Source: an uncultured bacterium
GTDB taxonomy: Bacteria > Cyanobacteriota > Vampirovibrionia > Gastranaerophilales > Gastranaerophilaceae
DNA: 49,060 bases
Assembly (NCBI GenBank): GCA_902798645.1
Contig: CADBXV010000005.1
Span: 1-49,060 of the forward strand
Reading direction: 5' to 3'
The notes beneath the pieces are model-generated. The model searched no databases. It worked only from the letters and a program-made list of their open reading frames with translations, and had not been told where the DNA came from. The position numbers were made by a program, and so were the translations under genes. This document shows positions 12,024 through 40,247 of this stretch, one piece after another (position 1 is the first letter of the stretch; each line of letters begins with the position of its first letter).

Positions 12024-12078
12024 CTACTTTGTAAAAGTATTATGTGTTCAAAATCGAACATATTATACATTTACCCCT

Positions 12079-12111
12079 GTAGGTCAGGTTTTACCTGACA
12101 TAAACTGTTTA
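12079..12111. repeat. Near-identical 33-bp dispersed repeat with GTCAGGT/ACCTGAC core
   Basis: TGTAGGTCAGGT-TTT-ACCTGACA followed by TAAACTGTTT. The same 33 bp recur almost unchanged at 40004-40037. Further on (12147-12196) is a more diverged AGGTCGGCTTTACC block and two GCTAAC/AACAATG repeats, so 12000-12200 is a mosaic of repeats. Confidence 0.65.
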
Positions 12112-12213
12112 TTATATATTAAAAAACACTAAACACAAATAAAATAGGTCGGCTTTACCAAGCTAACAACAATGTTTTGTTAATATAACAATGCTAACCT
12201 ACTTGTATATATT

Positions 12214-36601: not shown

Positions 36602-37447
36602 ATGTTTGAAGATTTTAATGAAGTTATATGTTTGGGTAAGGGTGGTTCTTATTCTGAAATTGCAAAAGACAGGTTGTTTAAAACCTATGATTTGTTTATG
36701 TACCAGCGTTCCTTGAACAGTATAAAAGAGTGTATAGATTATGTAGATGAGAATTCTAACGCTATTACTGTGCTGCCTGTTGAAACGACATATAAAGGAA
36801 TTATCAGGGAAACTATAGATAACTTGATTATTACAAAAAATCAGAATATTCAAATACTGGCAGAAACTATAGTTCCTGTAAATGATTGTATTCTTTCAAA
36901 AACAACTGAATTTTACAGCATAACCGGATTAATATCTAATCCTAATGCACTTGCAAAATGTAAAACTTTCGTGCGAGATGAGATGCCAAGACAGTTAAAT
37001 GTTGTTATAGCCGAGAATATGGAAGATTCTGCAAGAATGCTTAACAATTACAATCTTACGTATGCAATAATAGGAACACCTAAAACGGCAGAGTTGTACA
37101 ATCTAAATATATTAAAAGAGCATATTGAAGATTTTAAGATTAATAACAGAAGATTTATAGTGGTAGGTGACGGAGAAACAAAACCTACAGGTCATGATAA
37201 AACAAGCATCGTTTTATTTCTTGATGACCATCAGGGAGCTTTGTTGGATATTGTTCAAGTGTTTGTAAAATATCATATTAATATTACCCAAATTAATTCT
37301 AAGATGGTTAGTACAAATGCATCAGAACAAGCTGTATTTATCGATTTTGACGGTCACAAAGAAGATGATATAATCAAAAAACTTATAACAGACCTGACAC
37401 CGCAATCTAAAGGAATGAGGATTATAGGGTCTTATTCGGCATTTTAG
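36602..37447 (+). CDS. pheA: Divergent prephenate dehydratase-like protein with ACT domain
   Basis: This 281-residue protein has the length and order of prephenate dehydratase (PDT domain about 1-190, ACT domain about 200-281), the enzyme that makes phenylpyruvate for phenylalanine synthesis. Several hallmark residues differ. The catalytic TRF motif reads N-N-R183-R-F, so the essential Thr is Arg. The usual PIENS is P-V-E-T-T (59-63). The ACT ESRP motif is N-S-K-M (232-235). It may therefore be inactive or use another ligand, and the symbol is provisional. I use the ATG at 36602 with GAGG upstream. It overlaps the convergent gene by 4 bp. Confidence 0.75.
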   Translation: MFEDFNEVICLGKGGSYSEIAKDRLFKTYDLFMYQRSLNSIKECIDYVDENSNAITVLPVETTYKGIIRETIDNLIITKNQNIQILAETIVPVNDCILSKTTEFYSITGLISNPNALAKCKTFVRDEMPRQLNVVIAENMEDSARMLNNYNLTYAIIGTPKTAELYNLNILKEHIEDFKINNRRFIVVGDGETKPTGHDKTSIVLFLDDHQGALLDIVQVFVKYHINITQINSKMVSTNASEQAVFIDFDGHKEDDIIKKLITDLTPQSKGMRIIGSYSAF

Positions 37448-39543
37448 TTTTTGCTTATTAATAATTCTTTTTTGAATTTGTCAAGAAAATCTTTTTTGTA
37501 TAAAAAACCGAGGTGAGAACCGCAGTTTATACAAATCAGGTTTTTACCGGTAATTGTTTTAAGTTTACTTATTTGTTCTTTATTTAAAAGATAATCGTCG
37601 ATAGCTTCATAAATGCAGTAGTTATTATTTTTTGCTAAGTAATCTGAAAGAGCAAAAAGTGAGGCATATAAGCATTCATCATCTAATGAAAATCCGAGAT
37701 ACTTTTCAGCATAGTCTTGATAACTCATATTGTTTATCATTTTATATATATCAGATTGTTTATTTTTATTGGTGTTTTCAATCGTAAATATAATGTCTGA
37801 TAATTTTTGTCGCATAACAAATGTTGTAATAAGTTTAGCTTCATCATCAGTAAAAGGCAGTTTGTCTATTGTGAAATTCTTTTCATTTTTTATTCCGTAA
37901 AGCTGAAGCACTTTTGCGGCAGTTAGAGCAGTTTTGTTCTTTATCTTTCCTGAATCATAGTTATCGCTGTTTTTATCAAGTTGTAAAAGAGCGTATTTGA
38001 GTTCAATAGGAGGTGAAATAGCAACATATTTATTTACATTAAGCAAATTGTTTTTACTTTCTTTTTCCGCTACAAAAAGTGATCCGACTGCACCGAATGA
38101 AGTTCCTACTATTATTTTTTTCTCAGGTTGATAATTATATTTTTCACTCAGGAATTCCAATATTTTTAAGCTGACTTGCCTTATATATTCGGAATCATTC
38201 TGCGGTAATCCCGGTGCAAATCCGTCGGGCATACTTTTTACAAATTCCCAGTGGAAGTGGCTTCCCTGCATAACAACCGAATACCCGGCATCATAAAACA
38301 TTTTTGCAAATACCAGCGAATGATGATTTCCTGCGCCTTCTCCTATGGAAGGGTAAAATATCATTAACGGTGCGTTGCTATCTTTTTGCAGTATGTATTT
38401 GAATTTATACGGCTCTTTGCCCTCTGTAACAGTAATAGCGCCTGTTTTTACTCGTTTGGAAAAACATCTGTTCCAAATAGAAAGCTCGTTCCAAATAGAT
38501 TTATTTACCGTTTTATCCTCAAAAAAAGCTGTTTTCATTGAGTCAATTACCGGTGTTTGAATTTTAAAATCTTCTAAAATTATATCCGGTTTTAGTGCGC
38601 TTGTAAGCGGTAAAATATCGGTTAAAGTCGAAGCTCCTCCGGTAATTTGTCCTGTTGTCATAGTATTATTTTCTCCTTTCTTTTCTCCAAGTTCGGCAAT
38701 AAGTTCTTCCGCTTTTTCAGGATAGCCTTCTTCTACAAGTTGTTTTTCTTCCAATAAAAGTTCTTGTCTGTCATAGTTGGAATTTCTGATATAGTTTTCT
38801 ATCCCGAAAAGTTTTTTATGAATGTCGTAAGGGTCGGCATAATTTGTTTCAATCATTTTCGCAATAGGCTGCATGAAAGATGTTCTGTTAACCATCAGTC
38901 CGAATTTAATTATGGATGTAATGGGTGATGCTAAATAAACGGATGGATCAAGAGCCGCTTCCAATGCTCTTCCGCATAAAGAACGTGGTGTGCAGGAATT
39001 TAGACAGGGCATTACCAAATATGAACCTGAACCCATTTTGCATTTGCAAAGAGCTTGTTCCATATTTTCATTTGTCGGTTTTACTTTAAAAATTTTATCG
39101 GCAGGATCGAAAAGACCTCCGATTCCTATAGTCGAATTGGTTAAAAATCGTACGGTTTCACGTTTAATTCCTTCTACGTCCTTTTGAAGAATACAGCTTG
39201 CAAGTCTTTTGGGATAATCTATATTATTATATGCATCTCTTATTCTGTTAATACAGCATTGAGGAAGAATTGATGACCATAGTATGTGTACAGGTTTTGC
39301 TATGAATTTATTCAGTTTTGAATTGAGGTTAAACATTTTGCGGTTAAATTTTTCATGCTTATCCTCTCCGACATACATTTTTGCGTAATCAGGATATTTG
39401 CTCAAGTGGTCAGTTTCTACCGCTTGAATATCTGCTGAATTTGTGTTGATTATTTCTTCTGCGTAAGCAAAGTTATTTAAATTAAGTATAGGAGTAAGTA
39501 CAAGTGTGAATACGAGTACTAATGCTATAAATTTATTTTTCAA
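37444..39543 (-). CDS. Fusion of an MlaA (VacJ)-like domain to an alpha/beta-hydrolase
   Basis: This 699-residue exported protein has a Sec signal peptide ending in FAYA-EE (about 1-28), with no lipobox. Residues about 60-205 match MlaA/VacJ, the outer-membrane protein that removes phospholipids from the outer leaflet: EKFNRKMFNLNSKLNKFIA, NNIDYP, RFLTNSTIGIGGLFDPA and LEAALDPSVYL. Residues about 370-690 form an alpha/beta-hydrolase with nucleophile elbow G480-T-S482-F-G484 and a probable catalytic His677 in NCGSHLGF. A linker of about 100 residues joins them. The fusion suggests lipid binding coupled to ester or acyl hydrolysis. It starts with TTG (GGAG nine bases upstream). Confidence 0.82.
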   Translation of the reverse strand: MKNKFIALVLVFTLVLTPILNLNNFAYAEEIINTNSADIQAVETDHLSKYPDYAKMYVGEDKHEKFNRKMFNLNSKLNKFIAKPVHILWSSILPQCCINRIRDAYNNIDYPKRLASCILQKDVEGIKRETVRFLTNSTIGIGGLFDPADKIFKVKPTNENMEQALCKCKMGSGSYLVMPCLNSCTPRSLCGRALEAALDPSVYLASPITSIIKFGLMVNRTSFMQPIAKMIETNYADPYDIHKKLFGIENYIRNSNYDRQELLLEEKQLVEEGYPEKAEELIAELGEKKGENNTMTTGQITGGASTLTDILPLTSALKPDIILEDFKIQTPVIDSMKTAFFEDKTVNKSIWNELSIWNRCFSKRVKTGAITVTEGKEPYKFKYILQKDSNAPLMIFYPSIGEGAGNHHSLVFAKMFYDAGYSVVMQGSHFHWEFVKSMPDGFAPGLPQNDSEYIRQVSLKILEFLSEKYNYQPEKKIIVGTSFGAVGSLFVAEKESKNNLLNVNKYVAISPPIELKYALLQLDKNSDNYDSGKIKNKTALTAAKVLQLYGIKNEKNFTIDKLPFTDDEAKLITTFVMRQKLSDIIFTIENTNKNKQSDIYKMINNMSYQDYAEKYLGFSLDDECLYASLFALSDYLAKNNNYCIYEAIDDYLLNKEQISKLKTITGKNLICINCGSHLGFLYKKDFLDKFKKELLISKN

Positions 39544-39917: not shown

Positions 39918-40149
39918 TACCCTCTCCAACTCGGACACTATTTCTCCCGGTGAGAGAGGATGTTCCAATAATAACGAAAGCCATCCCTCCGAACCGCTGA
40001 AATTGTAGGTCAGGTTTTACCTGACAATAACTGTTTCTTTTTCCTACGGGATAAACCCTCTCCCACCATTGTAACTTTTGAGTACAACTATCAAGAACAA
40101 TGGTGACCTCTCCCATCGGAGAGGTATATGTGTGCATCCTGCTGACCTG
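39918..40149. repeat. Mosaic of three dispersed repeat families
   Basis: The 344-bp gap before the glutaredoxin gene contains no gene but many repeats. These are ACCCTCTCC...GAGAGAGGAT near 39920-39961; the 33-bp GTCAGGT/ACCTGAC element at 40004-40037, nearly identical to 12079-12111; CACCATTGT/ACAATGGTG (40064-40072 and 40097-40105); ACCTCTCC-catc-GGAGAGGT (40106-40125); and CTGCTGACCTG (40139-40149), also at 118-128. A 91-residue minus-strand frame across it looks fortuitous. Confidence 0.65.
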
Positions 40150-40247
40150 TACTGTTTTATAAAAGGGTAATATGTCTAAAACAGACGGCTAATGAAAAAA
40201 ATGATATGATGAGTTTAGATTTATAATGCAGTAACAAAGGAGGTTTT

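Follow-up and report, generated by a model that had tools for sequence, protein, structure and literature searches.

A predicted secreted fusion of an MlaA domain and an MlaY-like alpha/beta-hydrolase in the Gastranaerophilales

The window analysed here is a 49,060-nucleotide stretch of DNA from a member of the Gastranaerophilaceae, a gut bacterium belonging to the cyanobacterial line that does not photosynthesise. Its minus strand carries at 37444-39543 an open reading frame of 699 amino acids, which starts with TTG and is preceded by an AAAGGAG-like, purine-rich ribosome-binding site. The features of this gene are as follows.

37444..39543, minus strand: whole gene, a secreted MlaZ(MlaA)-MlaY fusion of 699 amino acids with a TTG start (open reading frame, profile match and ortholog alignment).
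39451..39543, minus strand: signal peptide, residues 1-31 (cleavage at ...NNFAYA/EE), of the signal-peptidase-I type and without a lipobox (read from the sequence; ortholog N-termini are similar).
38806..39366, minus strand: MlaA (PF04333) domain, residues 60-246 (Pfam, NCBIfam and phmmer).
38569..38805, minus strand: variable linker, residues 247-325, of unequal length among orthologs (alignment; pLDDT below 50 over residues 286-315).
37462..38568, minus strand: MlaY-like alpha/beta-hydrolase domain, residues 326-694 (profile homology and predicted fold).
38098..38100, minus strand: codon of the nucleophile Ser482 (GTSFG), equivalent to MlaY Ser187 (alignment; PMC11977310).
37594..37596, minus strand: codon of the acid Asp650, equivalent to MlaY Asp388 (alignment; PMC11977310).
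37513..37515, minus strand: codon of His677 (GSHLG), equivalent to MlaY His415 (alignment; PMC11977310).

An earlier sequence-only reading of this stretch had called the N-terminal domain MlaA-like, and a profile search bears this out: Pfam PF04333 matches with an E-value of 1.2e-38 and 133 bits (cut-off 25 bits) over profile positions 2-188 of 195. The solved MlaA structures 5nuo, 8i8r and 5nuq are matched by sequence as well (phmmer, E 1e-10 to 7e-10), and the NCBIfam MlaA model gives E 6e-18, a match under that model's own cut-off. This domain is the sole MlaA in the 2.07-Mb genome. A tree of MlaA domains places those of the fusion proteins in a clade of their own with full support, which stands apart from MlaZ on a long branch (2.39 changes per column); the tree neither establishes nor excludes a joint clade with MlaZ (p-AU 0.225). 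The AF2 model of the MlaA half is of low confidence: for much of the stretch from residue 93 to 223 its pLDDT is about 30-55. The signal peptide ends without a lipobox, as had been noted, and among about 60 ortholog N-termini most have an AxA-type signal peptidase I site, the single ambiguous case being L043 (VSSC). The absence of a lipobox is thus real, but it is not special to this protein, since MlaA proteins of the SPaseI type are known (PMC11131202).

The second half of the protein is less easily placed by family searches. Residues ~326-695 match no Pfam or NCBIfam family above cut-off, neither the hydrolase profile nor MlaY as query found a relative among PDB sequences, and the PldA/OMPLA beta-barrel family (PF02253) has no match in the fusion protein. 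The AF2 model of this half has an alpha/beta-hydrolase fold, in which pLDDT is mostly 80-94 for residues 361-520 and 55-91 for those that follow, and it matches known folds in Foldseek (E 3e-6, probability 1.00) and in VIA-align (Z as high as 18.9; 241 residues, 3.4 Å). The predicted fold and the homology to MlaY described below both uphold the earlier assignment of an alpha/beta-hydrolase joined to the MlaA domain. Ser482 in its GTSFG motif and His677, the two catalytic residues that had been named, are conserved in orthologs; with the acid Asp650, which had gone unnamed, they make up a triad that shows no substitution in 24 orthologs with identities as low as 48%, and the Ser and His motifs are kept throughout the order. 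Because the triad is invariant and these motifs persist, the hydrolase must be under selection. Other residues invariant in the ortholog alignment lie within PSIGEG (398-403), GSHF (427-430) and PG (444-445). The nucleophile motif occurs in the variants GTS[FLMY]G (L052, L033, L045, L048, L050 and L051). Genus g17, which includes L052, has the most diverged hydrolase half, with profile E-values of about 1e-140 where those elsewhere are about 1e-190; this divergence might perhaps reflect a shifted substrate.

Among plasmid records, a protein search located the counterparts of both halves as neighbouring genes in Pseudomonas aeruginosa and at one place in Fusobacterium vincentii. The P. aeruginosa pair adjoins genes for pirin, patatin, lauroyl acyltransferase and minCDE, and from its position beside pirin, patatin and minCDE we take it to be PA3238-PA3239. 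According to PMC11977310, which cites Guest 2023, MlaY (PA3238) is a periplasmic phospholipase of P. aeruginosa with the triad S187/D388/H415. These published numbers fit the sequence exactly, which confirms the identification. PMC11131202 and PMC12569750 (with Guest et al. 2023 as the primary source) describe MlaZ (PA3239) as a member of the MlaA family that is proposed to remove misplaced phospholipid from the outer leaflet and deliver it to MlaY for degradation, and PMC11977310 states that MlaY and MlaZ together rescue an E. coli pldA mutant.

Several comparisons indicate distant homology between the fused hydrolase half and MlaY. BLASTP aligns it with P. aeruginosa MlaY at 22% identity over 339 columns (E 7e-19) and with Fusobacterium MlaY at 23% (E 3e-17), and a profile-profile comparison gives a probability of 99.8 and E 2.1e-27 over 318 columns. 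When every reading frame of the retrieved loci was searched with the fused-hydrolase profile, five MlaY proteins were matched (E 1e-15 to 1e-27 at an effective size of 5000) and, apart from the fusions themselves, nothing further of note; as a negative control, the other annotated alpha/beta-hydrolases of the same loci (among them Legionella pip and an Azospirillum hydrolase) were missed. The triad columns coincide, S482 with S187, D650 with D388 (Glu in Fusobacterium) and H677 with H415. On an Azospirillum plasmid (L079, 1402-3325) an MlaA-family gene is followed about 380 nt downstream by a gene for a non-MlaY alpha/beta-hydrolase, which the profile misses. With no more than 19-22% identity to MlaY, the fused hydrolase could differ from it in substrate and in the bond that it cuts.

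The earlier suggestion that the protein extracts phospholipid and hydrolyses it gains support from this relationship and looks very likely; it is strongly favored because the hydrolase half is homologous to MlaZ's partner phospholipase. That suggestion had been paired with an acyl-modifying enzyme. The MlaA domain would then supply a phospholipid as acyl donor and the triad would move the chain to lipid A, a protein or a glycan, in the manner of PagP. Triad chemistry and substrate delivery would be identical in the two cases; sequence alone cannot separate hydrolase from transferase, and the invariant residues in PSIGEG, GSHF and PG may form an unusual pocket. The characterized homolog MlaY nevertheless behaves genetically as a phospholipase (PMC11977310, PMC12569750), and we regard an acyltransferase or other lipid-modifying enzyme as distinctly unlikely.

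The separate genes are tightly linked. mlaY precedes mlaZ with a 3-nt gap in P. aeruginosa and an 8-nt gap in Skermanella, and the two overlap by 11 nt in Fusobacterium; because they are adjacent in all three, the functional link between MlaA domain and hydrolase does not rest on the fusion alone. It might instead be supposed that the MlaA domain is a mere outer-membrane anchor, lipid extraction being irrelevant, and that the hydrolase has some other ester of the periplasm or membrane as its substrate. LolA is undetected in the lineage, where fusion to an MlaA domain would be one means of retaining a hydrolase at the outer membrane, and the MlaA domain is diverged, with a long branch. The pair is, however, kept as separate genes in three other lineages, and many positions of the MlaA domain are invariant across the order, and we therefore think an anchoring role of this kind unlikely.

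By sequence, the lipid anchor seems to shift between the partners of the two-gene systems. MlaY of P. aeruginosa has a near-match lipobox, ALGC, near its N-terminus and MlaZ has none; in Fusobacterium it is MlaZ that has a lipobox-like LISC and MlaY that has none; and in Skermanella both proteins appear lipidated, each with a lipobox-like cysteine. On the Skermanella plasmids (L073, 2339-7266; L074, 2330-7212) the mlaY-mlaZ pair has an RND permease gene on one flank and a tamB-like gene on the other, in an apparent outer-membrane lipid cluster. The overlapping Fusobacterium vincentii pair is unannotated (NZ_CP084075.1, L070, 4785-6825), in a chromosome-sized record of 2.1 Mb that is filed as a plasmid, and MlaC was not found in that record.

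Close relatives of the fusion come from rumen and gut Gastranaerophilales. MlaA was found in 72 of 292 genomes sampled from the phylum, all of one family and in open reading frames of 650-827 aa save one of 380 aa; the reverse search, with the hydrolase profile, found 93 of 386 genomes, again with long fused frames. Both searches share one exception, G254, where the MlaA and hydrolase halves lie on separate contigs. The fusion also occurs in two genomes of the sister family, and order-wide 139 of 286 genomes match, with G248 and G377 marginal and several partial copies ending at contig edges. Neither half was found standing alone in the phylum beyond such contig breaks, and in the Gastranaerophilales every complete copy is a fusion. 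The arrangement first read from one sequence is thus present in more than 100 genomes of the phylum. Its identity in all of these rules out a fusion made by a frameshift or in assembly. About half of the order's genomes are without the gene, which is therefore dispensable. Beyond the phylum, the plasmid collection and viral contigs were covered by protein search, with one contig scan by short exact peptide patterns; the hydrolase profile had no matches among the viral contigs.

Only the closest relatives share the neighboring genes, which are tlyA-like, tatD and cinA to one side of the fusion and prephenate dehydratase to its other side; as the neighborhood differs outside these relatives, the gene appears to have no operon partner. 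The intergenic stretch upstream of it (39930-40180) contains a short repeat with a core at about 40001-40062, for which 48 genome matches were reported, and a further copy lies at 12078-12113.

MlaC (PF05494) was detected in none of 117 family genomes, this one included, while E. coli and Caulobacter controls were positive; LolA is absent here and in 58 of 60 family members tested; and PldA (PF02253) was not detected in this genome. LpxC is present, so LPS is probably made. As for mlaBCDEF, on which the sequence-only reading bore, two MlaE and two MlaD genes lie elsewhere in the genome but MlaC is missing throughout the family genomes. The MlaD and MlaE genes would suit a canonical component of retrograde Mla transport that carries a degenerate hydrolase. 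Against this stand the 0 of 117 count for MlaC and the invariance of the triad in the orthologs with persistence of the Ser and His motifs across the order, which make such a component extremely unlikely. A transport route may still coexist with the fusion, given the MlaE and MlaD genes. According to a survey of 1083 genomes, diderm Terrabacteria have no MlaA, MlaB or MlaC at all; its authors linked this to their having no Lol and proposed that certain bacteria may depend on degradation, for example by MlaY, rather than on transport (PMC10665443). The Gastranaerophilales fusion is an exception to the reported absence of MlaA, and it is a candidate example of the degradation-reliant lineage that those authors had in mind.

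From these findings we consider it most likely that the MlaA domain collects outer-leaflet phospholipid, which is then broken down on the periplasmic side by the hydrolase tethered to it. The fusion would be exported by its cleaved signal peptide, and its MlaA domain would sit in the inner leaflet of the outer membrane, where mislocalised outer-leaflet phospholipids could descend through the pore. In the periplasm the tethered alpha/beta-hydrolase would receive them, and its Ser482-Asp650-His677 triad would cut the acyl ester bonds. Location, substrate, reaction and a direct hand-off from pore to active site are what we infer from the two domains, the secretion signal and the relationship to MlaY. 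Fusing both activities may replace the lipid anchor and may keep detergent-like products off the outer leaflet. We give an even chance to a broader idea for this whole order of host-associated diderm bacteria, which has no MlaC and almost no LolA: a single protein would maintain the lipid asymmetry of the outer membrane by removing misplaced phospholipid and degrading it on the spot, the lipid passing straight from channel to active site. If this is true, the fusion would represent a degradative version of the Mla principle that dispenses with MlaC and has been fixed by an order-swapped gene fusion.

The lipid hand-off from MlaZ to MlaY is only proposed in Pseudomonas, and a natural single chain suggests that both act as one unit; it also provides a protein for structural study of the hand-off. 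The published distribution, in which MlaA is "totally absent in diderm Terrabacteria" (PMC10665443), is corrected by the fusion. No literature on the fusion in Melainabacteria or Gastranaerophilales was found, and in the literature searched, which excluded the primary MlaYZ paper (Guest et al. 2023), the fused, order-swapped form and its occurrence in Gastranaerophilales appear to be undescribed. The earlier remark that the reader knew of no described enzyme of this build thus seems apt for the single-chain form but not for the two-protein MlaYZ. What would be new is that a single chain unites both predicted activities, in the opposite order, within a lineage for which MlaA and MlaC had been reported missing.

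Among known systems the closest is MlaYZ, which likewise pairs an MlaA-family protein with an alpha/beta-hydrolase of the same family that has its triad at the same columns. The fusion differs in being one polypeptide where MlaYZ is two proteins, in having no recognisable lipid anchor, in its Gastranaerophilales host and in the absence of MlaC from the genome. Its MlaA domain also comes first, whereas the operons run from mlaY to mlaZ; because the order is reversed, loss of a stop codon in an mlaY-mlaZ operon cannot have made it. With canonical MlaA/VacJ (PF04333) it shares the same domain over nearly the full profile length, but those proteins normally stand alone and are paired with MlaC, whereas this one is joined to a hydrolase, non-lipidated (as some known MlaA proteins also are) and found where MlaC is absent. 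The minimal MlaEFD of Veillonella, among the diderm Terrabacteria (PMC10665443), resembles the present case in lacking MlaC and retaining MlaE and MlaD; such lineages are reported to be without MlaA, whereas Gastranaerophilales have it, solely inside the fusion. Finally, the role proposed here, destruction of phospholipid mislocalised to the outer leaflet, is that of PldA/OMPLA, a beta-barrel (PF02253) from which the fusion's hydrolase differs in fold.
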